A stretch of DNA of 20,996 bases, taken from positions 1-20,996 of the IMG/VR virus record IMGVR_UViG_3300044302_003421. The stretch is one strand, 5' to 3'. The translations under genes and the position numbers were made by a program. The number at the start of each line of letters is the position of its first letter. Position 1 is the stretch's first letter. The notes below the pieces were generated by a model. It did no database searches and had not been told where the DNA came from. It worked only from the letters and a program-made list of their open reading frames with translations. Origin of the DNA: a virus. Shown in pieces: positions 1 to 15,976 of this stretch.

Positions 1-522
1 TTGATTTAAAAACCATTTAAGATAATCTAAGGGAACATCTGTAATAAATTTTCCACTATGTTTACCAAAATTAAGAACATATCCAGATTGTTTATTTGTA
101 GGGGAATTTGGCTGAGGCTTACCAGGGGAACCCACGGAAGGTTCGGAAGGTAATATAGGAGTAGCGTCCCTTTTGACCCCAGCCTTTTTAATGTCGTATA
201 AATCCCTTGCTATACCCCATTTAACGCAAGCACGTTTAAATGAGTCGCTAACTATAGACTTTTCTCCTTCAAAGTTTGCTTCAGTTCCAGTGTCCCATTT
301 AGTTACTTTGGTTCCATTAACATTAATAGAAACACCACACATCAACAAACCCTTTACTTCTTTATAATCATCACTCCAGTTTTCAGGACCTACTACAGCA
401 TCTAAAACATCCATGCAGTATCTCGCATCTACATAGGACAGTTTAACCCCTGCTTGGGTTCTGTGTTTAATCCTGTCTTCTGGTGTTGGTTGTGCTAGTT
501 TAGATAAATCAATCTTACTCAT
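1..522 (-). CDS. Rad52/Rad22-like single-strand annealing protein with ExoX-C-like domain (partial, C-terminus off the left edge)
   Basis: The frame is open from an ATG at 522 to the left edge, giving 174 residues without a stop, so the C-terminus is missing. An AAAGGAG site lies just upstream of the ATG. The middle carries the phage Rad52/Rad22 signature: LSYVDARYCMDVLD, then GPENWSDDY, VNGTKVTKWDTGTEA, and a motif EKSIVSDSFKRACVKWGIAR followed by DLY. Proteins of this family anneal complementary single strands in phage recombination and replication. A Pro/Ser-rich linker (PSEPSVGSPGKPQPNSP) joins this core to a second small motif, LNFGKHSGKFITDVPLDYL followed by KWFL, which resembles the C-terminal domain of exodeoxyribonuclease X-like proteins (FGKxxGxxxxxVPxxYLxWL). 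The Rad52 assignment is strong; the second domain is a pattern match by eye. The gene sits downstream of the lysis genes and starts a different functional module. Confidence 0.85.
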   Translation of the reverse strand, partial: MSKIDLSKLAQPTPEDRIKHRTQAGVKLSYVDARYCMDVLDAVVGPENWSDDYKEVKGLLMCGVSINVNGTKVTKWDTGTEANFEGEKSIVSDSFKRACVKWGIARDLYDIKKAGVKRDATPILPSEPSVGSPGKPQPNSPTNKQSGYVLNFGKHSGKFITDVPLDYLKWFLNQ

Positions 523-945: not shown

Positions 946-1230
946 TTATGAATTTTTTTTATTTAAACTGCTTATTATTCTAACGATTGAATGGTAGCTA
1001 CCCTCAAGTCGTGCAAGCTCCTTATGTAAATCTGGAAACTCGTCTGTTTGAAGACGCTTCTGTTGGTCTATAAGCTTGATAAGAATCCCCTCGGTACGAT
1101 TTTGACTCTCTTCTAGCTCCTGCATAAGCGTCTCCTGTATCCATTTATTTTGTCTAGATACATAAAAACCCAGTGCTATTACCCCTGCCACTGGCAAGCC
1201 AAAGGTTTCAATTAAATTTACAAAGTCCAC
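946..1230 (-). CDS. Membrane-anchored coiled-coil protein, holin- or spanin-like, 94 aa
   Basis: Translation starts at a GTG whose G is also the last base of the TAG stop of the upstream gene (TAGTG), so it is probably coupled to that gene; only a weak GATGAG precedes it. The product has one N-terminal membrane segment (about residues 8-24, ETFGLPVAGVIALGFYV) followed by a basic RQNK and a long charged helix up to about residue 90 with heptad-like spacing. The arrangement recalls BhlA/UviB-type holin-like proteins. It also superficially resembles an inner-membrane spanin, although the positive charges right after the span would place the coiled coil in the cytoplasm. Its place between the cysteine-cluster gene and another holin candidate supports a lysis-cassette role. 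Confidence 0.7.
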   Translation of the reverse strand: MDFVNLIETFGLPVAGVIALGFYVSRQNKWIQETLMQELEESQNRTEGILIKLIDQQKRLQTDEFPDLHKELARLEGSYHSIVRIISSLNKKNS

Positions 1231-1523
1231 TATTTATACTCATCTGGGTTTAATCTGTACTTTTTATCTACCCCACTCTTCTCCATCAGGTCGTTACAAA
1301 CCTCACTGGAAATTTTACAATATTCTTTATAGTTTATATCCATACCCTTTTTCTTTCTTTTTTCGTACATTTTTTTAATATTGCATATGTCTGGTCTCGT
1401 GTCGTATATACTACATTTGTTATCCTCAGATAAAAACTTGCAACTTCCATCTTCCTTAGTGGGTAATCCTATCAGACCTGCTTGCTTACAGCACGCCCCA
1501 CATTGACTACAGTTAAACTCCAT
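1230..1523 (-). CDS. YkgJ-like CxxCxxCC cysteine-cluster protein, 97 aa
   Basis: I choose the ATG at 1523 rather than the GTG codon just before it, because this ATG overlaps the upstream TGA stop (TGATG) and lies at a suitable distance from GGAAAG. The N-terminus CSQCGACC (Cys5, 8, 11, 12), then Cys28 and Cys37 in SCKFLSEDNKCSIYD, and RPDIC with Cys47, form the full signature of the YkgJ/CxxCxxCC family (zinc- or iron-chelating cluster proteins). Two further cysteines (69 and 76) follow in a Lys-rich C-terminal part. Family members are thought to bind metal, but their biochemical role is poorly defined. All core cysteines are intact, so it probably folds and binds metal. It sits inside a string of small membrane and lysis genes and overlaps both neighbours by one base, an unexpected place for such a protein. 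Confidence 0.85.
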   Translation of the reverse strand: MEFNCSQCGACCKQAGLIGLPTKEDGSCKFLSEDNKCSIYDTRPDICNIKKMYEKRKKKGMDINYKEYCKISSEVCNDLMEKSGVDKKYRLNPDEYK

Positions 1524-1675
1524 CACTTTCCAAATATCTTTTTAGCCATTAATAAAACTATTATTACCACTACTACTGATATAACATCAACAACGTGATT
1601 TCCACTGTCGCTTTCTAATGCACCTAGTGGCGTTTCTACTCTAAATGATTCAATTTTTGCTCTCTCCTGTGGCAT
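1523..1675 (-). CDS. Small C-terminally anchored membrane protein, 50 aa
   Basis: The frame starts at an ATG at 1675 that overlaps the TAA stop of the lysozyme-like gene (TAATG) and ends in a TGA at 1523-1525 that overlaps the next ATG (TGATG). The product begins with about 26 polar residues (MPQERAKIESFRVETPLGAL) and then has one strongly hydrophobic span, about residues 28-44 (VVDVISVVVVIIVLLMA), ending with basic KKIFGK. This is a typical single-span membrane protein. Translational coupling directly behind the peptidoglycan hydrolase makes it a plausible holin or other lysis accessory protein. I recognise no family. Coupled overlaps at both ends make a real gene likely despite its length. 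Confidence 0.65.
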   Translation of the reverse strand: MPQERAKIESFRVETPLGALESDSGNHVVDVISVVVVIIVLLMAKKIFGK

Positions 1676-2103
1676 TAGTTATTATCCACAAAGTGTTCTA
1701 TAGTGCCCTTTCCAGGACCATTGTAAATTTCTTTCCAGTATTTAGCTTGCTTAACCATTCCACTAGGGATTGGCTTGGGGCATCTCCAGTATTTATATCT
1801 ACAAAAAGCTACCTGTAGGTATATACTACACAGCACGCTGTTCTCTGGGTCTGTTAAATCAAGCCCACGCTTTACTAGGTGGTCTAATTTTTCTGGTCGG
1901 AACTTAAGGTAATTGTTGATAGTGTCATTAATGGTATCTGGTTCTACCTGAAAGAAACCCAGTGCTGGACCTTTAACTTGTTCTAGGTGTCTGTATCCAC
2001 TCTCAGCCATACCAGTCCTGTAGACTAGACTCTCTGCATCTTCACTATACATATTCAAGTCCTTAAGTACATATCTAATTATCTTTTTTATTGAATTTTT
2101 CAT
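1675..2103 (-). CDS. Lysozyme-like/transglycosylase peptidoglycan hydrolase, candidate endolysin, 142 aa
   Basis: The protein has a lysozyme-superfamily active-site pattern: YRTGMAESGYRHL with Glu34 as the likely catalytic acid, then GPALGFFQVEP at residues 45-55, where GFFQ followed by an acidic residue matches the G-x-x-Q motif of lytic transglycosylases and related phage muramidases. It would cut glycan strands of peptidoglycan. No signal peptide or N-terminal membrane span is visible, so it would need a holin or the virion to reach its substrate. The ATG at 2103 overlaps the TGA stop of the giant ejection protein by four bases (ATGA), so the two are translationally coupled. It is followed at once by small membrane proteins, which fits a lysis cassette; a virion-associated hydrolase is the alternative. 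Four cysteines lie in its C-terminal half. Confidence 0.75.
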   Translation of the reverse strand: MKNSIKKIIRYVLKDLNMYSEDAESLVYRTGMAESGYRHLEQVKGPALGFFQVEPDTINDTINNYLKFRPEKLDHLVKRGLDLTDPENSVLCSIYLQVAFCRYKYWRCPKPIPSGMVKQAKYWKEIYNGPGKGTIEHFVDNN

Positions 2104-5100
2104 TTTAACTTTCCTTGGTTTTTATGAAACGACTTTTGCTTTGATTTATAGCTTTTAATTCTTCTATCTATCCTATTTCGTTCTTTTTTATCGCTCGTCT
2201 CTCTCAATAATTCTATATTACTATCTATTAATATTTTAATATATCTATTAAAATCATCTCTCTCTGCATTAGAAAACCTAGTATAGGAAGAAACATTGTA
2301 CATATCGTACATCTTTGAATTAGCTGCAAATGAATCTGGTTCCGTTAACAACTTCCTTATAATTGGGACATTCTTTATTTTTTTTATTTTCCCAAATTTC
2401 ATTAAATCATACCCTGTCGTATATAAATTTCTTGAGGTTCTATATGGACCTCCACCCCAAGACTCAATAAAGTGGTCTACCCACTCAGGATTTATTTCAA
2501 TTAAGCCCCCTTTGTATCCACCACCTTTTCTTGGTCCACCCCCTGTAATTTCTGATATCCAATCTGTTGCCATCTTTGTATAAGGGTTCACTCCAGGGAA
2601 AGTTTCTTGACTTGCTGCCCTAGGTTTATTAGCCCACTTATTTGCTATTGGAGCTCCAGTAAACTTTTTATTATCTATTATTTCCCAGAGTGGTTTAGTG
2701 CCATAGGCTGTTGGAGCAAAAGATGATATTCCTGTCGTTCCAAACCCAATAGGGCTAGCTGCATTACCAAAAGCCTCCACCACTCTTTTAATATTATTTG
2801 TATGCTTAGGCTTTCTTCCACGAGATATAGCAACAACACCATCAGCCATCACATTTCCGAGTGTGTGGAAAATATTTAAACCCCAACCTATTTGCAGTTT
2901 AAACATTTGCCCATTAGGAAGAGGATACATAATATACGAATCTTTTTCATAGTCAGGTATTCCATCTGTCCAAGGATACTCGTCCTCGTCTGGGTCATCC
3001 ATTAACATAGAATTGATAATATTTAAAATAAATGATTGCATTGTTATTGCCATAACCATTCTTCTGGCAGACTTGCTCTTATATATACTGTTTGCCAATA
3101 TGTAGGTGCCCTGCATACTTGCATTTGAGAACAAATACGATGCTCTAAACAATGCTCCCTCTTGACCCTTTTGATTAAAGTCAACAGTTAAATCTCTCGT
3201 AGCTATTGCTGCATCGGCTTTAGATAATCCAGCCTCTCTTAAGTTTTTATATGCCGATAATCTTGTAGCTTGCTCTATAGCCATATTAAAATCTTCTGCA
3301 AACTTCCCTATAGCTCTCATAACAACCATTGGGTTCTTGCCCTTATGTCTCTTTATTATCTTATCAAGCTCTTTTAATTTATCTTCAATTTTTCTATTGG
3401 TGAACCAACCTACTGTAGCACCTTCTTTCCTCATTTCCTGATAATACTTACTCCACGCATCAAGCTTCTTTTTATTTACCGATAATTTTGCATCACCCTT
3501 GTCTCTCATAGAGCGATATATGGCTCTCATTGGACCACCAGACATAACATCTTTAAATACTTTTCTTCCTATTTTCTTATCAGGGGCTGATGCTTGTATA
3601 TTTACCATCGCTGTTTGAATATCTCTAATAAAATTACCCAATATAAAGTCAGGATTATATGTTGTATATGCTTTTCTAAGGAAGCTATTAACTTTTTCCA
3701 TCACCTTGTAAGATTTTTCTGTGCCTAAATTTTTAAAAGACTCCAATAAGCCCTTATCTGTTATAGTGATTATTTTTAACTTTCCATCTACTACAGCTTG
3801 TACCTCTTCGTTTCCTAGTTGCTTCTCTTCAAAAAACTTTAAATCTCCAGCCTTATCAAATCTTGGTATATATCTCTTACCCCTTGCACTCCAGAAAGAT
3901 GATGGGTTCTCTAGAGCCAGCAAGTAAAGCTTTTGTGCCACCCTGTTTTTACCTGACCTAACTACAGAGTTTGCATAATCTGAAATAGCAACTACAAATG
4001 GATTTAATGCCCTAGAGTTTCTGCCTCTCTTACGTTTAATATCTTTGCCTGTTATACTAAAACCTCTAACTCCTTGACCTTGTTGTTTTTTGTCTACGCC
4101 ACCCTTTAATGGTACGTAGAATTTATATGGAGAATCCTTTGTAAATTTATTATATGTCTCTTGGGAAATAAGACCACTATCTCTCAATATTCTAAGTCTT
4201 TTTTTAATAATTTTATTATCAAATTCCCTCGCAAACTTGACAATGCCTGTTCCACGATATTTTTCTAGGATAGATTTATACCCCTCTATTATTGTGCCAT
4301 CTTCTAGGGTAATATCTTCTCTCGCCATTCCAGAGCCTGTCCCCTCAAATGTAGCATCGTCTTCGTGTACTTTTTTGTTACGCTCTTCTGCGTGTCGTGC
4401 ATACAAGTATTCTCCAAAAGACTCAACATCAAACCCAGCATCCATTAGCCTTATAAGAAAATCTTTTTCTATGTAATTATTAAAATCTTCTAATTCTGCA
4501 CTTACCTTGCCTGGGAATAGTTTTGCTTCTTTATAAGGGTCTGTTAGCTCATCTGCATCTCTAACCAATCCAACGGTTTTATCTATCCTTTTTAATGAAT
4601 TAATATATTTTCTTATGAATCTTTCTCGCCTAGTCTCGTCTGATAATTCTAGTGGTTGGTCTGCTGGTTTAAGCTGGTAGCTTACTTGAGCTTTTTGCTT
4701 TTTAGGGAGGAGATTTTTGTTAAATCTTGGTCTGAGATTTGATATGTTGTTCCTAAGAACTGCTGAGTATCGTTCTGGATACCTTTCTTCGTATTCTGTG
4801 ATGATTTTGAGGTACTCTTTGTCTGCCTTTTGTCTGCTTCCAAAAGCCCCAATAAAGCTCGCCTTGCCAGTTCTTTGTTTAATTTCTTTGACATCTGATG
4901 CCTCCTTAAATAAATCTACTAAATTATTTCCCTCATCTACAACAACTAAATTAAATTTATTTCCCTGTATAGGTAAAGTCTTAAATAAAATTCCTGCATC
5001 TGTAAGCATTTTAGTATATGTTTTTAAATTTTTTGTATCTACATCTATTTCTACCTCATACATAGAATCTGGACCATTTTCCTGCACAACAAAATTTAAT

Positions 5101-8100
5101 ATCGTTTCTTGGTTTCTTGATAATCCTTTTACTGCTGCTATATACTTTAGTTGCTCTACATCTATTTCTGATGTTATTTCAGTGTACACGCTTGGTTCAG
5201 CCCCTGTTTCCCATTCACCCAAGCTTGACTTAGTTGTAGATTTCAATCCTTGCTCTACCTCTAAGTCTGCAACAAATCTATGAAAATTTATCAAGTCTTT
5301 ACTTTTAATTCCCTTTACAGCTTCATCTAAACCAATTTCTTTTATTTGAGGGCTTGCAACTTGTATGCCTGTAGTTTTTACGCCAAACAAACTATTATCA
5401 CCTGTATCTAAAAATTGTTTAAATAAATTAGTAGTAGGAGATTCTTTGTTTGTAATTGCTAAATTGTATGTCTTTGCCATTAAAAATGGATAATCTATTC
5501 TTTTATCACCTTCTTTTAGCTCTCCAACGTAATCTTTTAATAATATTGGCTCTTTTAGTTCTCTATAGCTTTTAAAATTTATTTCGTGGTCATAGGCTGG
5601 ATGTTTTACTTTTCTATCATCTCCAGTCCTAATATCTTCTACTTCAGCAACTGCAACAATTTTCCCAGCTATTTGATTAAAATCTGGAACAGAAGTCTCT
5701 CTACCCACTTGCTTCATATTTACTTTAGCCTCTGTAGCTGTTTTATATATGTTTTTTTTATTTTTTCTATAAAGTTGATTAAATTTTCTGACCCCTACAT
5801 TTTCTATAGCTGCTCTTTTTAAGGCTTCTATGAACGTAGGATTGTTTTTCATAGAATTAGCTGGGTCTGTAAGAGTTGTTATAGCTATAATATTATTTCC
5901 TTTGTCGGCTTGGTTTTTTATCTTTATAGCTGGTATTTTTGTAACTGCCCAACCCTTATATGTTCGTGGGTATCTTATTCCAAAATCTTCTTGCTCTCCC
6001 TTTAAATTGAGATTTGCTGCATCTCCAGCTATTATAAATGTTCCTGTGTTTTCTTTTTTATCTGCCGACACTATCTGATAGCTAGTATCTTTCTTCTTAG
6101 ATTTTTTGGATTTCTTTTTAGGTTTTTCTAAATTTGGCAACTCTTCTAAGATTGTTTCTGGAACATTCTCATACGTTGCATCGTCAAATGTTTCATCCTC
6201 TGAAATTTTAGGCTTAGGCTTAGTAGGCTTCTTAAGGTCTCTAATAGGTTTGATTGTTTCTTTGCCTACCTTCTTCTCTACCTCTTTAAGTATCTCTTCT
6301 TGTTTCTTTTCTGGTATTACATCAAAGAAGTCTAGTGATTCATATGGTAGGGGTTCAAACTTCTCCTTTAGAGTCTCTATTATTTTTGGCTCCACCATTT
6401 CTATTTCTAGGATTGGTCCACTATATATACCAGTAATCTCCTGGAACTGCTCATCTCCAAGTATGTCTCTTAGTATTTCTAGTGGTTGCCTAGGGTCGTC
6501 AGGCAAAACCGAACCACCTGGCATTACTTCTTTTTCTATTTTTATTTTCAGCTCCCTAGTAGCAACTGGAGATATTTTTTCTATTTCTTTGGGAACAATT
6601 TTCTTTGCCCTACGATTAAGAAAGTTAAACAATCTAGGCTTTGACTTAATTTTTTTAGATATTTCCTTTCTTTCCTTAACTTTTTTAGGTGGTGGTGGAA
6701 CTATCTCTGGTAGGTCTTCAAGCTCTGCTTCTGGAACATCCTCGTATGCTTCGTCTTCAAATGTCTCATCTAGTGTTGGCTTAGTCTCTGGCTTTAACTT
6801 TTTACGCTTCTTCTCTATTCTTTTTTTGCGTCTTTCTTCTTTCTTGGTAGGTTTCTTCTCTACCTCTACTTCTTCTTTGGGTGCTTCTTCTGCTTTAGGC
6901 TTTTCTTCCTTTTCTTCTTGACGCTGTTCTCTTCTTCTTTTTAGTAAAGCTGCACGCTCCCTAGAAATTGTCTGCTTTCTCTCTTGTGCTTGTCTATATA
7001 TATCAGCCACACCAGAAGAAACATTAAATCTTTTAAATGCCCTGTTGAACATATTACTAATAAACTGGAAGGTCTTATCTGCTGCACCACCCCTATCCTC
7101 TTGAATGCTCTTATATTCGTAAGATTTACCCTCTTTTTCAAAGAGTTCTTGTTCCGTAAGGGTTTGGGATACATCTGGAATCATCTTGTCTGACATTCCA
7201 TTTTCTTCCATCATATCATTTATAAACTGATTTATTTCTATCCTATAATTTTCGTCTGTTTTATATGTATCATAGTGCTCTGCAAAGACATCACTTTGCT
7301 CATTGGACAAGCCACCCCTATAATAAAGTCCATAATACTCTTCTATAGCTGTATCTAAGTCTGCACCTTTTCGTAGACCCAATTTTAGCTTGAAGTTATT
7401 AAACATAGTAAACCCTAATATATTTACATTATTAATATCGCTTGATAATCCCTCTCCTTCTAATGTAACCCCTTCATTTTCTAATTGCTCTTTAGTGGCT
7501 TTCATTTCTTCTTCAAGGTTTATATCTAATGATACCTCTTCTTTCAAAGAAGGGTCTTTAATGATTAGTCCCCTTATGAACTGTAAGATATTTTTTTTCT
7601 GCTTGGTTTCAATTATAGTTTCAACTTCTTCAATCTCTGCATCAGATAAATTTTCTTTTTTACCTTTTGACTTATTTTGTAGAACCTCTAGCCTTTTATC
7701 ATTTTTCTCTACTTCATTCTCTATTTCTGTAATTTGCTCGCCAAGCTCTGGATTATTTTCATTAAATTTATCTATCTTTTTATTTTCTCTTGCTTCGTAT
7801 ACACTATTGAATGCCTTTGATAACTTTCTCTTACCAATCCCTGGGACTGAAAATGCAACCAACTCCAAAGATAGCTGTTCCCACGTTGGATTTTGCCATA
7901 CCCAATTCTTATTTTCAAAACCCTCTATTAGTGGCTTTCCATTTTCATCTTTCGTTGTTGATAATAAGTTTAAAATATGTCTACCTGCATCACCAACTCT
8001 CTCTTCAAACATCTCCTCAAATACGCCATGATAACCAAATGTTCTAAATATCTTTTCTATATCTTTATTGCTAGCACCTGGATTTACTTTTTTAAACGCT

Positions 8101-9704
8101 CTCATTACAGCAGTGCTCATTAAATATTCTTTGTTGGGTAGACCTAATTTATCCCACGACTTAATAAACTTATCGCCTGTATATTTACCCACCTTTGTCT
8201 TGCCAATCCACCTTGCTAGCTTTGATGGAACGCCACCCACCATCTCAGAGCCAAACTCTAAAGTAGTACCCCAATAAGCTTGTCTTTCAGCAGAGAGTTC
8301 ATCCATACCATTGTATATTTTAAATAGTTCGCCATCAAGCAGTTCATAGCCTGGCATTAGATTTCTAATTTTCGCTGTCTCTACATCGCCTGATAAAGAT
8401 GTCCCAACTGTTGTTATTGCTACTTTCTCTGTAGCTCCTTTAACAAGTCTTGTGGCAGTTCTATTTTTTAGCTCCCTTTGTATTTTTGTTTCAATTCCCT
8501 CTTTTATATATTTTTTTAAGAATTTATCTGCAACCTTAATTGATGCCTTGCTACCAACCTTAACAAGACCACCTGATGTCCCAATCTCTACAAAAAAACC
8601 TGGCATAGATGCCAACATTTCAACTAATGTAGCACCCCAAGTTGCTGTACTCTCGTAATCCTGCTGCTCTACCCAAGCCATTAATTCATTTAACTCTTCC
8701 TCGGACATACTTGCTGGGTCTTCGTCAAACCTCTTTGCTAGCTTGTAAGCGTTAAATAACTCAGGGGCTCCATAGATTGCATCTGCGTATGGTATGTATT
8801 CGTGCATATTTTCATCTAAATGCTTCATGGCTGCAGCGAAGTCATATACTTTCTTATTTCTTTCTTTAAAATCTCTTTGAATATCTTTAATATCTATGTT
8901 GAAAAAATCTTTTTCTAGAGTACCCTTCTCTAGCGATGCCCTCCATTTAGACATTAACATACCTTTAATGGATGTAATATTGCCATTTTCATCCATATAG
9001 AGACCAGTCTTACCTGTTTTCTTATAATATCTATCTTCAGCTTGTCTTATCTTTGGAGATTTTTTTAAAATATCCTCTAATAATTCCTCATCTCCCTCTC
9101 CATGAAGTCCCCCTAAAGCCCAATGATACCAAGAATTGAATGCCTTTGCTGCATTATTGTCGTGCAGTTTTACATAATCATCCTTATCTTTATACAGGTC
9201 GTATCCAAAGTATTCTTTATACCTTTCTCTACCTCTTGTATTTATTTCATTTTTAATAATCTCTAATTTTTCACTCTCTTTATTCTCTGTCAATACATCT
9301 TCTACATTGGTGAGGGATTTTGGAGACTCATGACCCTCTATTCTTCCGTATAAATGCGATGTTTTGAATTTCTTTCTAGCCATTGCTTCTTTTGCAACAT
9401 CTAGACTTATATCTTCTGGAGTTTTTCTTGAGGTGAACGCACCAACACCTGGAGTTCCCTCTGGGTACTTAGCTTGTAATTCATCACGATATTTTAACAT
9501 AGGGTCTACAGGGTTTGATAGCCTGTAGTTTAATTCATTAATAGCGTTAACTTGGTCTTCATTGAAATTTTCAGGGTTCGCTTGAAGCTCATCATATTTG
9601 CCACGAATGAAGTTTACCTGCTCTTCATTGAGGTCGTCAACAGTATAATAAGTAGTATACTTACGCTTAAATAAGTCCTTTAATGGGTTTTTAATAGGTG
9701 GCAT
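2100..9704 (-). CDS. Giant virion/ejection protein with large polyvalent protein (LPD38-like) C-terminus, 2534 aa
   Basis: One uninterrupted frame starts two bases after the preceding stop. Its place at the end of the tail/ejection block corresponds to T7 gene 16 (the large internal ejection protein). Residues about 350-560 hold Gly/Ala-rich, weakly hydrophobic stretches (EMLASMPGFFVEIG, LEFGSEMVGGVPSKL). Residues about 924-1206 are a Lys/Glu/Pro-rich linker with a duplicated acidic motif. Residues 1208-1680 are unassigned. The C-terminal third shows motifs I associate with phage large polyvalent proteins: YLYARHAEERN near 1760, GSGM soon after, YVPLKG near 1860, YNPDFILGNFIRD near 2017, FNMAIEQATR near 2135 and FSNASMQGTY near 2190. 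The last two resemble domain LPD38. A hydrophobic segment (VMAITMQSFILNIINSMLM) lies near 2215-2235. Such proteins are thought to be packaged and delivered with the DNA. No transglycosylase, protease or methylase motif is visible. Confidence 0.8.
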   Translation of the reverse strand: MPPIKNPLKDLFKRKYTTYYTVDDLNEEQVNFIRGKYDELQANPENFNEDQVNAINELNYRLSNPVDPMLKYRDELQAKYPEGTPGVGAFTSRKTPEDISLDVAKEAMARKKFKTSHLYGRIEGHESPKSLTNVEDVLTENKESEKLEIIKNEINTRGRERYKEYFGYDLYKDKDDYVKLHDNNAAKAFNSWYHWALGGLHGEGDEELLEDILKKSPKIRQAEDRYYKKTGKTGLYMDENGNITSIKGMLMSKWRASLEKGTLEKDFFNIDIKDIQRDFKERNKKVYDFAAAMKHLDENMHEYIPYADAIYGAPELFNAYKLAKRFDEDPASMSEEELNELMAWVEQQDYESTATWGATLVEMLASMPGFFVEIGTSGGLVKVGSKASIKVADKFLKKYIKEGIETKIQRELKNRTATRLVKGATEKVAITTVGTSLSGDVETAKIRNLMPGYELLDGELFKIYNGMDELSAERQAYWGTTLEFGSEMVGGVPSKLARWIGKTKVGKYTGDKFIKSWDKLGLPNKEYLMSTAVMRAFKKVNPGASNKDIEKIFRTFGYHGVFEEMFEERVGDAGRHILNLLSTTKDENGKPLIEGFENKNWVWQNPTWEQLSLELVAFSVPGIGKRKLSKAFNSVYEARENKKIDKFNENNPELGEQITEIENEVEKNDKRLEVLQNKSKGKKENLSDAEIEEVETIIETKQKKNILQFIRGLIIKDPSLKEEVSLDINLEEEMKATKEQLENEGVTLEGEGLSSDINNVNILGFTMFNNFKLKLGLRKGADLDTAIEEYYGLYYRGGLSNEQSDVFAEHYDTYKTDENYRIEINQFINDMMEENGMSDKMIPDVSQTLTEQELFEKEGKSYEYKSIQEDRGGAADKTFQFISNMFNRAFKRFNVSSGVADIYRQAQERKQTISRERAALLKRRREQRQEEKEEKPKAEEAPKEEVEVEKKPTKKEERRKKRIEKKRKKLKPETKPTLDETFEDEAYEDVPEAELEDLPEIVPPPPKKVKERKEISKKIKSKPRLFNFLNRRAKKIVPKEIEKISPVATRELKIKIEKEVMPGGSVLPDDPRQPLEILRDILGDEQFQEITGIYSGPILEIEMVEPKIIETLKEKFEPLPYESLDFFDVIPEKKQEEILKEVEKKVGKETIKPIRDLKKPTKPKPKISEDETFDDATYENVPETILEELPNLEKPKKKSKKSKKKDTSYQIVSADKKENTGTFIIAGDAANLNLKGEQEDFGIRYPRTYKGWAVTKIPAIKIKNQADKGNNIIAITTLTDPANSMKNNPTFIEALKRAAIENVGVRKFNQLYRKNKKNIYKTATEAKVNMKQVGRETSVPDFNQIAGKIVAVAEVEDIRTGDDRKVKHPAYDHEINFKSYRELKEPILLKDYVGELKEGDKRIDYPFLMAKTYNLAITNKESPTTNLFKQFLDTGDNSLFGVKTTGIQVASPQIKEIGLDEAVKGIKSKDLINFHRFVADLEVEQGLKSTTKSSLGEWETGAEPSVYTEITSEIDVEQLKYIAAVKGLSRNQETILNFVVQENGPDSMYEVEIDVDTKNLKTYTKMLTDAGILFKTLPIQGNKFNLVVVDEGNNLVDLFKEASDVKEIKQRTGKASFIGAFGSRQKADKEYLKIITEYEERYPERYSAVLRNNISNLRPRFNKNLLPKKQKAQVSYQLKPADQPLELSDETRRERFIRKYINSLKRIDKTVGLVRDADELTDPYKEAKLFPGKVSAELEDFNNYIEKDFLIRLMDAGFDVESFGEYLYARHAEERNKKVHEDDATFEGTGSGMAREDITLEDGTIIEGYKSILEKYRGTGIVKFAREFDNKIIKKRLRILRDSGLISQETYNKFTKDSPYKFYVPLKGGVDKKQQGQGVRGFSITGKDIKRKRGRNSRALNPFVVAISDYANSVVRSGKNRVAQKLYLLALENPSSFWSARGKRYIPRFDKAGDLKFFEEKQLGNEEVQAVVDGKLKIITITDKGLLESFKNLGTEKSYKVMEKVNSFLRKAYTTYNPDFILGNFIRDIQTAMVNIQASAPDKKIGRKVFKDVMSGGPMRAIYRSMRDKGDAKLSVNKKKLDAWSKYYQEMRKEGATVGWFTNRKIEDKLKELDKIIKRHKGKNPMVVMRAIGKFAEDFNMAIEQATRLSAYKNLREAGLSKADAAIATRDLTVDFNQKGQEGALFRASYLFSNASMQGTYILANSIYKSKSARRMVMAITMQSFILNIINSMLMDDPDEDEYPWTDGIPDYEKDSYIMYPLPNGQMFKLQIGWGLNIFHTLGNVMADGVVAISRGRKPKHTNNIKRVVEAFGNAASPIGFGTTGISSFAPTAYGTKPLWEIIDNKKFTGAPIANKWANKPRAASQETFPGVNPYTKMATDWISEITGGGPRKGGGYKGGLIEINPEWVDHFIESWGGGPYRTSRNLYTTGYDLMKFGKIKKIKNVPIIRKLLTEPDSFAANSKMYDMYNVSSYTRFSNAERDDFNRYIKILIDSNIELLRETSDKKERNRIDRRIKSYKSKQKSFHKNQGKLK
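6135..6197 (-). repeat. Internal acidic peptide repeat, copy 2 (giant protein residues 1170-1190)
   Basis: This stretch encodes DETFDDATYENVPETILEELP, shown here as positions 1170-1190, with key residues DETF-D-YE-VPE-LE-LP. It matches copy 1 at residues 979-999 at 14 of 21 positions, and the DNA is also visibly similar. It is preceded by a KPTKPKPK stretch and followed by KPKKKSKKSKKK. Confidence 0.75.
6708..6770 (-). repeat. Internal acidic peptide repeat, copy 1 (giant protein residues 979-999)
   Basis: This is the first copy of the acidic motif (DETFEDEAYEDVPE, then LEDLP), 191 residues before copy 2. It is flanked by basic segments (KKRKKLKPETKP before, PPPPKKVKERKE after). The alternation of a basic stretch, the acidic motif and another basic stretch is shared by both copies. 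Confidence 0.75.
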
Positions 9705-9706
9705 TA

Positions 9707-10585
9707 TTAATCTTTCGCAAGTAGTCTGAGCCAGTCATCCTCTGTAAAAGTCTTTCTTGGTGGTGGAATGAGCGTACTTGGGTCTACTTTATCCCATTTA
9801 GTATCTCCAAATGTGTCTGTTTCCCCACTTCCTGTATAATAACTAGGTGGGGCACCATCAGGTCTTCTAACCGAATGAACCTTACTTGGGTCTATGTCTT
9901 TATTACTTAAAAGCTCAGGGAAACCACTTACACTTTGACCAAATTTACTTTTATAATTTCTATATTCCTTTATATTTTTTGGCTGTGAAGGGGTAAATTC
10001 TCCATAATCCTCAGCTCTAATATTGCCAAAAGCGTCTATTGCTTCATCTCTATAATCTCTTTCACCAAGCTGTGCAAACTCCCAAGCTTTTGTCATGGCT
10101 TTCACTTTATTCTTTTGTAAATTTTTTAATCTAGGAATATTTGATATTAAATCGGCATCTTCTGATTCGTAGTCCATATTGTCATCTTTGTATTTAGTAA
10201 TAGCATCGGATAAGTTCTTGCTCACTGTAAAATACTCATCCATAGCTTTTTCGTATTCTTCTCTTTGTACTTCACCAGAAGACTTATATCTATCTATTAA
10301 CTTTTGCCTTTCAAGCTTATCTTTTACAGCGTTAGACTTTTCTTTGTTTATTATTTTATTAAATTTATTTTCATATTCCTGCTTTTTTTCAAGTGGGGCT
10401 AGCATTTCATTGGCTTTATCTTTGCCCTTAACTACATCTATAGCATTTCCATTCTCATCTGTAATTATATAGAGGTCTTGGTCTTTAAATTCCCTTATAT
10501 ATCTTCCCACTAAATACTTTGAATTTGGAGAAAGTCTTTTATTTTTTGCTATTTTTTTATGATTTAATATTTTATTTTTATCCAT
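9707..10585 (-). CDS. Charged helical protein, candidate internal virion/ejection protein, 292 aa
   Basis: The ATG at 10585 lies behind an AAGGGG site that directly follows the stop of the 246-residue gene. The stop is two bases before the start of the giant gene. The product is very rich in Lys, Asp and Glu. It has a basic N-terminus (KILNHKKIAKNKRLSP), a probable long helical region at about residues 60-175 (LEKKQEYENKFNKIINKEKS onward), and a Pro/Gly-rich C-terminus (RRPDGAPPSYYTGSGETDTF, then PSTLIPPPRKTFTEDDWLRL). There is no signal peptide or membrane span. I recognise no family. Its position between a gene 14-like and a gene 16-like protein suggests an internal core or ejection protein, comparable in place to T7 gene 15 but much shorter. 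That role rests on gene order alone. Confidence 0.7.
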   Translation of the reverse strand: MDKNKILNHKKIAKNKRLSPNSKYLVGRYIREFKDQDLYIITDENGNAIDVVKGKDKANEMLAPLEKKQEYENKFNKIINKEKSNAVKDKLERQKLIDRYKSSGEVQREEYEKAMDEYFTVSKNLSDAITKYKDDNMDYESEDADLISNIPRLKNLQKNKVKAMTKAWEFAQLGERDYRDEAIDAFGNIRAEDYGEFTPSQPKNIKEYRNYKSKFGQSVSGFPELLSNKDIDPSKVHSVRRPDGAPPSYYTGSGETDTFGDTKWDKVDPSTLIPPPRKTFTEDDWLRLLAKD

Positions 10586-10596
10586 ATTGCCCCTTA

Positions 10597-11337
10597 TTAA
10601 TCTGGTCTATCATAACGTCTACCCCACTGCTCTGGGTCATTTGGGTGAGTGTCTTCATTTGCAGTATATGTATTTTGATTAGAATAATCCTTACTCATCC
10701 CAGTTGCAAAATCTGCACCAGCTTCATAGGCAGCTAATGCCTGACCTTGCTTTGATTGCATCTGTTGTAATTTTGCCCCACTAATAACGCCTGCTCTCTT
10801 CATCGCAAGTTCTCGCATTAGGGTTCCTCGTTTCATTAAAGATTCTTGGTACCTACGTTCTGCATCAGCTTTTGTCCTTTCGTTCTCCAAAGCTATTTGG
10901 CGAGCTTGTGTTGCTATAGAAGCTCTCACATCTGCACCAATCTTCCTAGACACTTCTTGGGCTATTATAGAGCCCTCTAAGCCTTGTGCAGTAATTTTCC
11001 CCATCGCCTGAGCCTCTTGAGCTTCCCCTTGTTGATAGAGTGGCTGTGCCATTTGCATATTTAACTTTTCAACATTCATGGTGCCTTGCTCTGCACCTTT
11101 TTTCATTCTACTCATAGCCTGAGCTTCTTCTGGAGACATCCTTCCTGCAGCTTTTAATTGTTTAAGCCCTGCCTTTTTTTGCTCTGCAATTAATTTTTTC
11201 TCTTGCTGTCTCTTTATTACGCCACCTACTATCTTAGACCCCAGTATAACAGCCATAGTGACTGGGTCTGGCATTTGCTTGTCGTTTCCATAAGGTCCAT
11301 TTTGAACCCATCCATCAATTTGTTCTAATAATTGCAT
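10597..11337 (-). CDS. Ala/Gln-rich internal virion protein, T7 gp14-like by position and architecture, 246 aa
   Basis: The ATG at 11337 overlaps the upstream TAG stop (TAG, A and T shared with the start), with GGAGG a few bases before. The N-terminus has one moderately hydrophobic segment (about residues 26-41, VTMAVILGSKIVGGVI) followed by a basic, Lys/Gln-rich stretch. Residues about 45-210 are an Ala/Gln/Met-rich region of predicted long helices (for example EEAQAMSRMKKGAEQGTMNV and ALENERTKADAERRYQESLM). The C-terminus is polar and Asn/Asp-rich. A short membrane-active N-terminus followed by Ala-rich helices is the usual layout of podoviral internal protein B (T7 gp14), which enters the host envelope during DNA ejection. 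Gene order agrees. No direct sequence match is claimed. Confidence 0.7.
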   Translation of the reverse strand: MQLLEQIDGWVQNGPYGNDKQMPDPVTMAVILGSKIVGGVIKRQQEKKLIAEQKKAGLKQLKAAGRMSPEEAQAMSRMKKGAEQGTMNVEKLNMQMAQPLYQQGEAQEAQAMGKITAQGLEGSIIAQEVSRKIGADVRASIATQARQIALENERTKADAERRYQESLMKRGTLMRELAMKRAGVISGAKLQQMQSKQGQALAAYEAGADFATGMSKDYSNQNTYTANEDTHPNDPEQWGRRYDRPD

Positions 11338-12284
11338 TAGATTTCCTCCCTTACACTATGAAAGAGGTCTCTATCTGCTGATTCGTTAATTAAGTTTTCC
11401 ATGTTCATAATCCATTTTGTCCAATAAGTGTTATATATATCTGGCGAGGATTTAGCGTTTGCTATTGCTATAGCATAGTCGCATAAAGATGTATGGAACT
11501 GGCCAGGGATTAAAGGTTGATAATCCCTAACTCCAAGCACAGTTACCATCGCTCCAATCGCATCTGACCACTCAGAGCCTGATAGGGAGCCCTCGGCTGA
11601 AAAAGCACTATTTAAAGTATAATAGCTTCCAATCCTATCAGGAGACTCCCCTGCAACCAATGCCCCAAGATAATTAGTAAATGATGTGTCTGGCAAGCCT
11701 GCAGATATTGTCGCACCTGAATTATTACCCCCAGACAATGTTCGTACTTGACCCTCAAAATGAAGCTTCTTGCCATCCAATAGTCCACCTAATGGGGTAT
11801 CTATATACACTGTTGGTCCAATAGCACTATAATATTGTAGGGTGTAAATCTTATTTCTTGTTTCCTCGGTTAATCTAGATTTATAATGTAATATAAAATC
11901 ATCGCCCCTTGAAGGTGCTGAGTTAAATACTATAAAATTTCCTGATATTGAGTACGCTGTAGGCGTTCCTGTGTATGTCTGTCCAGTGGTACTGCGATGA
12001 ATTTCATCCTCTGTCATTTTCTTTAAGCGTGTTCCCTTGTGGGTAACCCCTATATCTTGTAGGTAGTTAAGGGGGAGCTTTGCGTAGTTATGCTCCCTTA
12101 CAGTATCATGAGAACCCTCTCCAAGTCCATAGTCTGTATATGGGACTTTAATCTTATATAACGCCTCAAATAACATAAGTTTATCTGAAAGCTCTATTTC
12201 TGCTTCCTTCAAAAGCTCTTTTAGTAAACCACCTGGAGCATCTGTGAAAAGCAAACATCTATCTACTAATTTATCCCATGTCAT
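11337..12284 (-). CDS. Second adaptor/gateway-like tail protein, 315 aa
   Basis: The N-terminal 45 residues are helical (KLVDRCLLFTDAPGGLLKEL and the helix after it). A beta core follows with GTPTAYSISGNFIVFNSAPS and DDFILHYKSRL, the pattern I associate with Gp6/SU10-type head-tail adaptors, where a PxxYxxxGxxIxFxPxP block precedes an LxYY strand. Residues about 150-240 form a Gly/Ser-rich beta insertion, and the C-terminus is again helical (FHTSLCDYAIAIANAKSS onward). Proteins of this type form the dodecameric ring between portal and tail tube or nozzle. A better candidate for the first ring lies upstream of the nozzle gene, so this copy may form a second gateway ring or another tail part. 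The ATG at 12284 follows the 38-residue gene's stop by one base and uses GGAAG inside that gene. Confidence 0.65.
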   Translation of the reverse strand: MTWDKLVDRCLLFTDAPGGLLKELLKEAEIELSDKLMLFEALYKIKVPYTDYGLGEGSHDTVREHNYAKLPLNYLQDIGVTHKGTRLKKMTEDEIHRSTTGQTYTGTPTAYSISGNFIVFNSAPSRGDDFILHYKSRLTEETRNKIYTLQYYSAIGPTVYIDTPLGGLLDGKKLHFEGQVRTLSGGNNSGATISAGLPDTSFTNYLGALVAGESPDRIGSYYTLNSAFSAEGSLSGSEWSDAIGAMVTVLGVRDYQPLIPGQFHTSLCDYAIAIANAKSSPDIYNTYWTKWIMNMENLINESADRDLFHSVREEI

Positions 12285-12285
12285 A

Positions 12286-12402
12286 TTAACTTCCTTGTTC
12301 TAATTTTTTTATTCTTGCCTCTAAGTCAGATATTATCTGCTGAAGTCTTGCAATTAACTTATTTATTTCTGCATCTTGAGATTTATATCCTATACTACTC
12401 AT
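12286..12402 (-). CDS. Coiled-coil mini-protein, 38 aa
   Basis: The frame starts at an ATG at 12402 inside the last codons of the nozzle gene (8-base overlap, ATGAGTAG) and stops one base before the next start. After ten polar residues the product is one long amphipathic helix with hydrophobic residues at heptad-like spacing (INKLIARLQQIISDLEARIK, then KLEQ), typical of a small leucine-zipper-like coiled coil. The last codons hold the GGAAG that serves the next gene, so it also couples translation of its neighbours. The partner is unknown; a small tail assembly chaperone or oligomerisation factor is possible. The clean helix pattern and coupled ends support a real gene. Confidence 0.6.
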   Translation of the reverse strand: MSSIGYKSQDAEINKLIARLQQIISDLEARIKKLEQGS

Positions 12403-15400
12403 ACTCTACATCTACTTTTGAAATTTCTCTTACATTATTCTCGTTAAATTGGTCTGTTATATTAATCCTTACACTTTTTCCTCTTTGGCTTGTACGAGTT
12501 GACTGAACCCCATCTAGATATTCTTCTTTTGTTACTGTATACATACCTTCACCTCCAACCTCCAACTCCATACCAACTGAACCCCCACCTTTATTTGTAT
12601 TGGTATTAACTCTTCTAATATAGGCGTTTTGGTCGTATGGGGTTAACTCCTGCTCACCAGTCCACGCTTTTATCGTTATAGTTTGGCTTCCCTTATCTTG
12701 ATAGGATGAAGTATTGACTGCCTTTCTTATATAACTATTATTTCCAGAACCACCACTACCATTTGAGCTACTTTCTATTAATAAAGTATTATTGTCATTA
12801 TCTAGTGCAAACTCATCGTACCCAACACTTCCATGTTTTTCAGTTGCCCATGTTTGTCTTAAAATATCATATGTCCAAAAAAATGTAGTTGTTGATACGC
12901 TTTTTGTTATATATAGTTTATTATATTTTACATCATAATGTGTTTTCATAATAGCTGAACTACTTGCAACATTTGCCTGATATTCATCTCTAATTGGGTA
13001 TGTTATTGGTGTTGCAGAAAAACCTGAATTTAAAAATATTACATCTTCTTGCGATAAGAAAAATATCCCATTAGGCGTTTTTGTAATCCCCTTATCGTGT
13101 AGGCAACCTATATTAGGGTGAGCCTCTACTAAACTCCAATTTGATGGGTCAGCCGATGGGATACTAATTCTAAAGATTCCTTTTGTCATAAATACAACTA
13201 TGTCACTCATTAGGGATTCTATTCCAACTATCTCTCCACCTTGGAGGTCGTCAAGCTTAATAAAATTACTTGTAGGGATAATGTCTGGTGCTCCTGGGTT
13301 AGAGTACATTACAAAGTTGGGGTACTCTTCAGTATCCTCATCTCCTGTAATTTTAACATTAGCAACAAACTGCCTACCATTAAGCATCGTGGCGTACTTA
13401 AATTTAACATCTAAGGACGTAACTCCATCGTTTTGGTGTCTGGTTCCATCTGGCAATCCTGGGTCATAAAAATCAAATAACATATATTGGTTCATGTCAT
13501 TATCGTTAGCTCCATTTGTACCATAACTATAAAATTGATAATTAGATGTGCTATAGAAAAAAGTATCACTATCTGGCGTTAAGGCAGAGTTATTATTACC
13601 AAGGTCTGGTATCATATCCTCCACTCTCACAAAACCATCAACATTATCAACAATGACTGACCTATCTGTATAATCTCTTGTTGGATAGTATGCATTGTCA
13701 AGATGAATTTGTATGCTGTTTCCTTTTAAGATTCCATTCTGTAATCCTTCGTCTTGAAATGCTTTTGACATCCCAATATCTTTACCTGCAAAGCCTACCA
13801 AATTATCATCAAATGTGTAATTGGATACTGCTGGTCTAACAGAAAGACCCTTTACATACACTGCTGCATTATCAACATTGTCTGGTATATAGTTAAAATA
13901 ATACATATATAGGGTTGTGCTTGATGGTGTTATTTCGTATTGAAACCATCTCCATTTGTCAATATTTTGATTGGTGCCACCTTTTCCGATTGCTATATCT
14001 TGCAACCCTTCTGCTGATTCTTGGTCATGTCCAGATGAATCTGAAACGAATAGCCTCCATCTTGCATCTCCATCACTAAACCCTTCAGCCCTAATCCAGC
14101 CACTAATTATATGTTTGGTTGTAGAAACTGCAGCAGAGCCACCGAGTCTCCACCTTTTCATATCAGTATTTGCTGCCCCTGATGACCAAAATTTAAGGTG
14201 TATTTCGTCTGTAGAACCACCATCGCCAGAGTTAGTTGTTGTAAAATTTGTTGTAAAGGGTCCAGGGGTATCAGTGTCACCTTGCGTTAGTGAAATAGCA
14301 TCAGCAGTACTTGCTCCTGGAGGGTCAATATCAGTTCCATCATCAATAATATCTATTGTCTCTGCCCCTGCAAAGTACCAACCTCCGTTAGGACTACCTC
14401 CGATGACATCTCCACTATCTGCAAATATAAGTTCTGTAGCTTCTGATGGATGGTTAAATTTACTCATATTGTAAGAGCCATAGTATTCGCTTGACATATT
14501 TGCATCGTTTCTAACTACATTACCAAAAGTGCTTGCATAGCTATCATTAGTATTTACTAAATGGTATCCTGATGAATTAAAGTTAATTTCTAAGTTACCA
14601 TGATGTGGCTCATATCTAAACCCATCTATAATTAATTCATAGCTATCAAAATCTGTGTCTGCTGAAGGTGTTGTGTCTCCTTTGAACCACAGAGTATCTC
14701 TAGCTCCATATAAATCTACCTGCTTTTGATTAGGGTCATTATCACCCATATATATTGATTTAATTTTAAAGTATGTTCCACCATTTGTGCTTCTATATAC
14801 ATTAATTGCACTCATTCGTGGATTTAATAGTTGTAGGTCTATTTTCCCAGTCATTAGATATGCAGACCTTTCTGCTGACAATATTCCAAGTGGCTCTGTA
14901 AGTTTAGCATCCATTTGTCTTGTTGTACCCTCTAATATAGGAGATTCTAATAATACTTCCTGCACTCCATCATACACTGGGACGAATTTATAATCATATG
15001 TATTATTTTTTAAATCTAAAAGACCATCTATATATTTTGGCGTACTAGAATTATTTTCTGTAATAGTGTTGGCTGATATAATTGGAACAGCCTCATCTAT
15101 GAAAAATGTAGGGTACATTGTATGTGCATCAGCGTTATAGTCACGCTGTAGCATTCCATTGAAATGATGCCTATTAACATACTTAAGTAATAATGGAGAA
15201 TGCTCAAGTCCACAGGCAAATCTAACTCCGTCTGTGTATGTTTTCATTCTAATGTGCATATCAGACGCACCTGATAGTATATCTATTGTGTCAAGGTCTC
15301 CATAATCATTGGCATTTAACATACCTATTCTCATATCAGAACCATCAACCCATGTCACCATTAATGCCCTTCCATCATAGGAATTTCCATCATTAATTTG

Positions 15401-15976
15401 CAAATTATTTGGAGTTGCTCCATCATCTTGCCTATCAAATATAAATGAAATAGTTGCGTGTTGACCTGCTGACCCATTATTATCTACTGCTTCATTAGCT
15501 ACTGCTGTTGTAAATACAATAGTGTTTGTTGTTACTGAGCTTATGACAAGAGCTTTATCTTTATTTGTACAAGCACCACCACCATTCACAACTGCATTTG
15601 TGGATAAAACTATTGTATCTCCTGCTTTAAATATTGTTGTAAGGTCTGTTGAGCCTCCAGGAATTTTAATATTAGTGGTGTTTATAGTCCCACCTATAGT
15701 CAATGTGGTTGTTGATGTAAATGTTAAATTATTTGTGTTGACATCAACTATTTTCACACCTGTTAATTTTCTATGAACAAATATATCAGCGTTGGTGATT
15801 TTGCAATCCGTATTTCCTGTAATAGCACTAGATTGTGTTCCTGTGCCATATCTTTTAATTAACTTTCCGTTTACATGGCGTACATTCTCTAAAGTAGTAA
15901 AGCCATTAAATCCGACTCTTTTTGGGTCATCTTGTGTGTTTAGTCCTGCGTCTAAATTTACTTCAATTCTTGGCAT
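12395..15976 (-). CDS. Tail nozzle/stabilisation-type protein with beta-domain insertions, 1193 aa
   Basis: The N-terminus (NLDAGLNTQDDPKRVGFNGF, then LENVRHVNGKLIKRYGTG) is typical of phage stabilisation or nozzle proteins such as P22 gp10 and T7 gp12 relatives, which have a GGLN...DP...N...GxLxKRxG pattern. Residues about 890-1000 continue the same core (GIFRISIPSADPSNWSLVEA, then GCLHDKGITKTPNGIFFLSQ), with beta-propeller-like strands. Two apparent insertions lengthen it. At residues 73-165 is a Thr/Gly-rich small beta domain (FKAGDTIVLSTNAVVNGG). At residues 530-716 is a jelly-roll-like segment (IISGWIRAEGFSDGDARWRL, LYMYYFNYIPD, AAVYVKGLSVRP) resembling a carbohydrate-binding module. It probably forms the distal tail tube, and the insertions may contact host glycans. 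The ATG overlaps the previous stop (TAATG). Confidence 0.75.
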   Translation of the reverse strand: MPRIEVNLDAGLNTQDDPKRVGFNGFTTLENVRHVNGKLIKRYGTGTQSSAITGNTDCKITNADIFVHRKLTGVKIVDVNTNNLTFTSTTTLTIGGTINTTNIKIPGGSTDLTTIFKAGDTIVLSTNAVVNGGGACTNKDKALVISSVTTNTIVFTTAVANEAVDNNGSAGQHATISFIFDRQDDGATPNNLQINDGNSYDGRALMVTWVDGSDMRIGMLNANDYGDLDTIDILSGASDMHIRMKTYTDGVRFACGLEHSPLLLKYVNRHHFNGMLQRDYNADAHTMYPTFFIDEAVPIISANTITENNSSTPKYIDGLLDLKNNTYDYKFVPVYDGVQEVLLESPILEGTTRQMDAKLTEPLGILSAERSAYLMTGKIDLQLLNPRMSAINVYRSTNGGTYFKIKSIYMGDNDPNQKQVDLYGARDTLWFKGDTTPSADTDFDSYELIIDGFRYEPHHGNLEINFNSSGYHLVNTNDSYASTFGNVVRNDANMSSEYYGSYNMSKFNHPSEATELIFADSGDVIGGSPNGGWYFAGAETIDIIDDGTDIDPPGASTADAISLTQGDTDTPGPFTTNFTTTNSGDGGSTDEIHLKFWSSGAANTDMKRWRLGGSAAVSTTKHIISGWIRAEGFSDGDARWRLFVSDSSGHDQESAEGLQDIAIGKGGTNQNIDKWRWFQYEITPSSTTLYMYYFNYIPDNVDNAAVYVKGLSVRPAVSNYTFDDNLVGFAGKDIGMSKAFQDEGLQNGILKGNSIQIHLDNAYYPTRDYTDRSVIVDNVDGFVRVEDMIPDLGNNNSALTPDSDTFFYSTSNYQFYSYGTNGANDNDMNQYMLFDFYDPGLPDGTRHQNDGVTSLDVKFKYATMLNGRQFVANVKITGDEDTEEYPNFVMYSNPGAPDIIPTSNFIKLDDLQGGEIVGIESLMSDIVVFMTKGIFRISIPSADPSNWSLVEAHPNIGCLHDKGITKTPNGIFFLSQEDVIFLNSGFSATPITYPIRDEYQANVASSSAIMKTHYDVKYNKLYITKSVSTTTFFWTYDILRQTWATEKHGSVGYDEFALDNDNNTLLIESSSNGSGGSGNNSYIRKAVNTSSYQDKGSQTITIKAWTGEQELTPYDQNAYIRRVNTNTNKGGGSVGMELEVGGEGMYTVTKEEYLDGVQSTRTSQRGKSVRINITDQFNENNVREISKVDVEYE

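Follow-up and report, generated by a model that had tools for sequence, protein, structure and literature searches.

What does a protein of 2534 residues, encoded by a single gene next to the virion genes of a phage, do for that phage, and does it carry a cargo? The question is raised by the window analysed here, the whole stretch of 20,996 nucleotides that covers positions 1 to 20,996 of the IMG/VR virus record IMGVR_UViG_3300044302_003421, in which the gene in question encodes the protein called P0001. An earlier note had given this gene more than a third of the window, and the measured share is 36%, in one intact open reading frame (ORF) that starts from an ATG. It is the last gene of the virion gene block: portal and capsid genes lie upstream, followed by two small internal-virion-protein-like genes, the portal and major head protein PHROGs share its strand block, and the gene order around it is the same in two other records, G003 and G005. 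P0001 is not an assembly accident, since near-identical copies (100% identity) are present in two other IMG/VR contigs, L002 and L003, one of which comprises residues 1-1987 only and ends at the contig end. The reading proposed here, to which we give a probability of roughly 0.72, is that P0001 is a virion-packed, ejected polyvalent protein with a common C-terminal (C) module, a group-specific N-terminal (N) part and a cargo slot at residues ~1208-1679, with blocks exchanged at two junctions.

The evidence begins at the C-terminal end. The Pfam profile PF18857 (LPD38) matches within the last 900 residues with 86-91 bits against a curated cut-off of 27, which bears out the assignment to LPD38-type polyvalent proteins made in the earlier note. 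LPD38 lies inside a larger conserved module of ~820-850 residues, common to divergent phages and encoded in at least 479 IMG/VR stretches; PHROGs 14770, 616 and 10691, which are 2793-3925 positions long and have no assigned function, match P0001 only in this part, at residues ~1703-2523. The motifs on which the assignment had been based (ARHAEERN, GSGM, YVPLKG, NPDFILGNFIRD and FSNASMQG) are all present and form the most conserved blocks of the ~820-residue module, upstream of LPD38 itself and within the PHROG stretch, and in most members a single hydrophobic helix stands just before LPD38. In tblastn searches of GenBank phages, matches are limited to the C-terminal ~800 residues (1685-2485), the N module and the cargo cassette giving none; the carriers are Stx-type coliphages, Vibrio phages, Ruegeria phage 45A6, Bcep22-like phages, Bacillus Pagevirus, Pelagibacter phage HTVC034P, VvAW1 and Pondi. 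In each of nine annotated relatives' records a single very large gene carries the homologous region at its C-terminal end, and this gene mostly lies within the virion block or closes it.

What stands ahead of the C module varies among these relatives. BcepIL02 has SLT (residues 77-168), methylase-like, helicase and LPD3 domains, phage P27 has LPD5, LPD1 and MuF_C, Ruegeria 45A6 has helicase, methyltransferase and GNAT domains, and the IMG/VR phages L021 and L042 have ART-PolyVal with DUF7178 and InPase with DUF7178 and ART-PolyVal, respectively; HTVC034P gp44, encoded two genes after an internal-virion-protein-like gene, has 1229 residues, barely more than the C module. Purified virions of the Bcep22-like phage JC1 yielded 51 unique peptides of its DarB-like gp69, a relative of 4515 residues, with a score second to that of the capsid protein (PMC9144972). 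Neither outcome that the earlier note named as refuting its reading was seen: the LPD38 profile matches, and a cultured relative carries the protein in its virions. According to published work on relatives and on the family, such proteins are located in virions and are considered to enter the host along with the DNA (PMC9144972; PMC5512222). Because of the LPD38 match, the widespread C module and the virion association of JC1 gp69, P0001 is a phage polyvalent protein and, by analogy with its relatives, one of a known kind that is probably ejected into the host.

Several known systems resemble P0001 in part. As described by Iyer et al. 2017 (PMC5512222), where mosaicism was already recognised and polyvalent proteins were compared with polyproteins, LPD38 polyvalent proteins share with it the location of LPD38 near the C-terminus, the very large size, the virion-gene neighbourhood and the mosaic cargo; P0001 differs from them in that no zincin MPTase domain is detected and in a cargo cassette (M) found in no library searched. 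In the DarB-like proteins JC1 gp69 and BcepIL02 gp70 the C module is homologous to that of P0001, with 26% identity over ~550 residues (E ~1e-30), and the Bcep22-like genes likewise close the virion block; however, DarB-like proteins have 4500-4700 residues with SLT, methylase-like, helicase and LPD3 domains toward the N-terminus, none of which is present in P0001. T7 gp16 shares the gene order, a very large protein after two smaller ones, and hydrophobic segments near the C-terminus, but P0001 lacks its N-terminal transglycosylase domain; the absence of such a motif had been noted by eye, and the SLT profile has no match in P0001 or anywhere else in the window. The virion RNA polymerase (vRNAP) gp50 of phage N4, from its published description, is also a giant ejected protein, in which an N part and a central cargo are joined to a C part that is large and for the most part helical; unlike it, P0001 has no RNA polymerase and no detected HEXXH zincin domain, the zincin MPTase giving no Pfam match.

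Comparison with sister phages, namely IMG/VR scan finds with the same gene order and with portal and capsid identities of 85-92%, demonstrates that the P0001 gene is a mosaic whose blocks are swapped between sisters at two junctions. The cassette stretch (1208-1679) is 92% identical in L097, 73% in L098, 72% in L099 and 50% in L105, and is absent from L015, L016, L116 and L121. The C module (1685-2534) follows a different distribution, with 59% identity in L015, 48% in L016 and 47% in L116, being replaced by an unrelated C part of ~735 residues (type B) in L097-L099 and L121, and by a third type in L105. No mutual homology was found among the three alternative C modules (type A of the window phage, type B of L097-L099 and that of L105), and types B and C gave no tblastn match among GenBank phages. 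At the DNA level, similarity to G003 extends over residues 979-1685 and is then lost up to 2531, similarity to L099 is confined to residues 1209-1676, and similarity to L016 covers 950-1198 and resumes from 1674; these three separate comparisons place the breaks at residues ~1198-1209 and ~1674-1685. The cassette is the sole detectable part that P0001 shares with L105, in which an ORF at 1816-8754 (2312 residues) carries it between wholly different N and C parts, neither matching Pfam or PHROGs.

The age of the blocks was assessed from synonymous divergence (dS) between the window phage and L097. Values of 0.50 for the cassette and 0.61 for the linker compare with 0.37 for capsid and 0.59 for portal (range for the capsid genes, 0.37-0.59). 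The N module, in contrast, is near saturation (1.2-2.3). As the cassette diverges to about the same extent as capsid and portal, it is the inherited part, and the N and C parts on either side of it are the ones that were exchanged. The idea that the cassette was freshly imported, and is more conserved than its flanks for that reason, is ruled out by its dS, which equals that of the capsid genes, and by the older N module. The ratio of nonsynonymous to synonymous divergence (dN/dS) in the cassette, about 0.1 against L097, indicates purifying selection.

Where, then, would an effector be carried? The earlier note had allowed for one in the N-terminal or the middle part, and the two have fared differently. 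The middle gains support, residues ~1208-1679 being exchangeable and the same slot holding DUF7178-type or ART-PolyVal domains in sister or related phages. The N-terminal 960 residues are less supported as an effector: they are common to all sisters whatever the cargo, with identities of 25-79% in piecewise comparison, a part of them (about 343-620) is present also in L021, L024 and L073, and, with a low-confidence model, they look more like a fixed structural part. It could also be argued that the whole of P0001 is a structural, gp16-like internal-virion protein, the cassette being a variable conduit or envelope-contact part suited to the host envelope. Such a protein would account for the position and hydrophobic-helix layout shared with T7 gp16, for the lack of a known enzyme match in the cassette, and for the strong divergence also seen in the neighbouring genes at the gp14 and gp15 positions and in the large tail gene (dS is saturated in the gp14-like gene). 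This explanation is unlikely, and cargo fits better than a conduit part, because the slot holds ART-PolyVal or DUF7178 elsewhere and because the cassette adjoins unrelated N and C parts.

The borders of the slot carry a peptide mark. The motif [STN][YF]Q[LIV] occurs in 17 copies in eight sister proteins, against 2.2 expected from shuffling, and these copies are placed at cargo borders; only 2 copies occur in 17,682 residues of other proteins from two sister phages. L121 has four copies, and its ART-PolyVal domain (1702-1819, E 6.5e-17) is the lone Pfam domain between the copies at 1684 and 1831. The L121 ORF (9601-17433, 2610 residues) apparently contains three cargo modules in a row: one DUF7178-like by eye, a second ART-like one also by eye ('YRAGP...GDWITLS'), and the Pfam-matched ART-PolyVal. 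In the wider LPD38 family, 20 of 43 diverse members have the form [RKLVIYMTNSH][FY][SQ][LIRVK] in the stretch of ~50 residues that leads up to the C module, against a mean of 3.1 and a maximum of 10 in shuffles and 0 of 43 for the reversed motif; since the form of the motif was picked after viewing the data, a bias to which the reversed control is not fully subject, these counts somewhat overstate its significance. Related motifs bracket the GNAT domain of L031 (790 and 905 around 822-883) and the ART-PolyVal of L042 (2399 and 2670, with a match that starts at 2422), and one precedes the LPD3 of BcepIL02 (3307 before 3331). No description of a junction motif was found in the searched passages of Iyer et al. 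(PMC5512222), supplements and most other papers lying outside that search.

Such marks might act in DNA only, as a short shared word that enables swaps and encodes a peptide with no function of its own. At the right junction the DNA GTAAGCTACCAGCTTAAACCA / GTAAGCTACCAGCTT(AAACCA) is identical or nearly so in five phages, and its 20-base core is found in five IMG/VR contigs only, all of the window phage's group, as expected of a recombination mark. Other junction copies, however, keep the peptide with varied codons (AGC/AGT/TCT, TAT/TAC, CAA/CAG, CTT/CTA/TTA/CTC), and divergent LPD38 phages retain a related [FY]S[RLIVK] at the same place; this points to a constraint on the peptide too, and a role at the DNA level alone is left with a minority share of the probability. 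From these sequence comparisons we read the junction as a module border that appears to be constrained at the peptide level and re-used for block exchange. A broader proposal, slightly less probable again and only tentatively made, is that LPD38 proteins are standardised delivery cartridges, in which the peptide junction (K-rich + [ST]YQ[LI] in the window phage's group, [LIRVM][FY]S[RLIVK] family-wide) would be a recognised site for cutting or ordered unfolding during ejection, separating swappable cargo modules from the ejection module. That a protease cuts at the junctions is speculative.

The cassette itself is divided into two predicted domains, M1 and M2. It found no relative in the genome collection and nothing meaningful against Pfam and PDB sequences, no known enzyme was found in it, and the whole of P0001 gave nothing against PADLOC; the cassette may be described as a candidate family of injected effectors that is not represented in the libraries searched. 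The structure model of M and C together (residues 1212-2411, 46 sequences) has a predicted local distance difference test (pLDDT) score of 74, with moderate confidence in the cassette. For residues ~1218-1442, YTH domains top the VIA-align list, the best aligning 133 residues with a root-mean-square deviation of 3.8, and residues ~1543-1615 match many ferredoxin/ACT/PII-like domains. M2 also weakly resembles the domain that follows DUF7178 in L015, L021, L024 and L042 (pairwise hhalign E 0.009; HMMER ~1 after correction), a sequence likeness that is suggestive only. The cassette might accordingly be a polyvalent domain of the YTH/EVE/ASCH superfamily that binds modified bases and serves anti-restriction or anti-defence: YTH domains (YTHDF1, YTHDF2, YTHDC1, Mmi1, MRB1) make up about a third of the top 50 VIA-align rows, at Z 7.1-8.0 with 125-138 residues aligned. 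This identity is possible rather than probable, the match being one of fold alone at borderline Z, in a part modelled with moderate confidence, with no support from sequence profiles.

A number of results weigh against the reading of P0001 as an ejected carrier of cargo. Its location in the virion is deduced from a single relative, JC1 gp69. The model of the N module is poor (all-helical, pLDDT 53). No sequence match was obtained between the C module and T7 gp16, T7 gp15 or N4 vRNAP by BLAST, HMMER/hmmsearch or hhalign, and a PDB fold search with the M + C model gave no match at E<=0.001; T7 gp16 and N4 are not among the fold matches listed, a listing that does not exclude them. As a sequence relationship to T7 gp16 or N4 vRNAP was not found, the comparison with T7 gene 16 made earlier holds for position, and 'gp16-like' is to be taken as an analogy of position and of topology or function. 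The strict junction motif is missing in more than half of the diverse LPD38 proteins, and the examined parts of these phages contained no recognisable protease. In the cassette, the YTH-like match reaches only Z 8.0, and PF04146 (YTH), PF01878 (EVE) and PF04266 (ASCH) gave no match at E<=10 in three cassette-carrying phages, with positive controls. Since a best Z of 7-8 is common, according to VIA-align's own note, and these profiles are negative, a YTH/PUA-like M1 that binds nucleic acid or modified bases is kept as a lead from modelling, with about one chance in three.

Under the reading of P0001 as an ejected polyvalent protein, the C-terminal ~850 residues, with the hydrophobic helix and LPD38, would package the protein and take it across the envelope, a task that gp16 performs in T7, and P0001 would be ejected into the host along with the phage DNA. 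The N-terminal ~960 residues would be the helical part specific to the phage group, and residues ~1208-1679 the cargo slot; blocks of the gene are swapped at the K-rich + [ST]YQ[LI] peptide junctions. The cargo, with an M1 that is YTH/PUA-like and an M2 that is ferredoxin-like by fold prediction, would probably target nucleic acid or host defence in the first minutes; the models thus hint at a nucleic-acid-related role.

Table 1. Coordinates in the window of the P0001 gene, its putative parts and the two genes upstream of it.
Feature	Position	Strand	Basis or remark
2534-residue LPD38-type polyvalent/ejection-position protein (P0001)	2100..9704	minus	ORF and profile searches
N module, residues 1-960, helical	6825..9704	minus	common to sisters L097, L015, L016, L098, L099, L116, L121
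K/E-rich charged linker, residues ~961-1206	6087..6824	minus	sister comparison
Junction motif 1, K-rich + TSYQI, S at residue 1208, 'SKKKDTSYQIVSAD'	6072..6101	minus	sister comparison
Cargo M1, residues 1218-1442; YTH/PUA-like fold predicted, tentative	5379..6053	minus	structure model
Cargo M2, residues 1446-1674; predicted ferredoxin/ACT-like core at 1543-1615	4683..5369	minus	structure model
Junction motif 2, K-rich + VSYQLKP, S at 1675, 'KKQKAQVSYQLKPAD'; DNA GTAAGCTACCAGCTTAAACCA	4665..4700	minus	sister comparison
C module type A, residues 1685-2534 (stop included)	2100..4652	minus	sequence comparisons
Hydrophobic helix, residues 2217-2235	3000..3056	minus	same place in most type A modules
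Pfam LPD38 (PF18857), residues 2245-2431	2412..2972	minus	Pfam profile, E 4.5e-24
292-residue gene, gp15 position	9707..10585	minus	36-39% identity in G003, no match in G005
246-residue Ala/Gln-rich gene, gp14 position	10597..11337	minus	co-diverges with the P0001 gene

Around the P0001 gene, the gp14- and gp15-like identity of the two small upstream genes is suggested by size, composition and order and not by a profile match. The gene at the gp14 position has a dS of 1.5 against 0.4-0.6 for capsid genes. The genes at the gp14 and gp15 positions and a tail gene of 1193 residues (together 9707-12284 and 12395-15976, minus strand) are 36-63% identical between sisters, and the portal, capsid and downstream genes are far less divergent (73-98%). 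After the P0001 gene, three small genes (946-2103, minus strand), 73-98% identical in sisters, are possibly a lysis cassette. They encode a PHROG 3108 protein of 142 residues that is lysozyme-like by eye (ES...GFFQ) but is not matched by the SLT profile, a CxxCxxCC protein (PF03692), and a protein of 94 residues with one N-terminal hydrophobic helix; the by-eye idea of an SLT transglycosylase at 1675-2103 received no support from PF01464. At the window end, which cuts the gene, positions 1-522 (minus strand) encode a Rad52/Erf-type single-strand annealing protein (Pfam Rad52_Rad22, E 2e-10; PHROG 1097) that ends in a short QSregVF_b/ExoX-like C-terminal stretch. G003 has at 27584-28471 (plus strand) a gene of 295 residues that is cytosine-methyltransferase-like by eye (MNILSLFNGMSTG...) and is not at the same place in G005. 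The G005 record (L110, L111; 38,020 bases) appears to be a whole genome, either circularly permuted or with a terminal repeat, because it starts and finishes with the same gene (MIKLGDAMRPL...).

Taken as a whole, P0001 adds a member to a known kind of protein; its novelty lies in the slot and the junction motif, in C modules that can be replaced, and in a cassette without assignment. Proteins that phages deliver and that act ahead of phage gene expression form a large pool, most of it unassigned; a mark in the sequence on either side of swappable cargo would allow effectors to be recognised by rule within giant chains and then tested one by one, and the junction mark makes the processing of polyvalent proteins, whether it occurs and where, a question for mass spectrometry.

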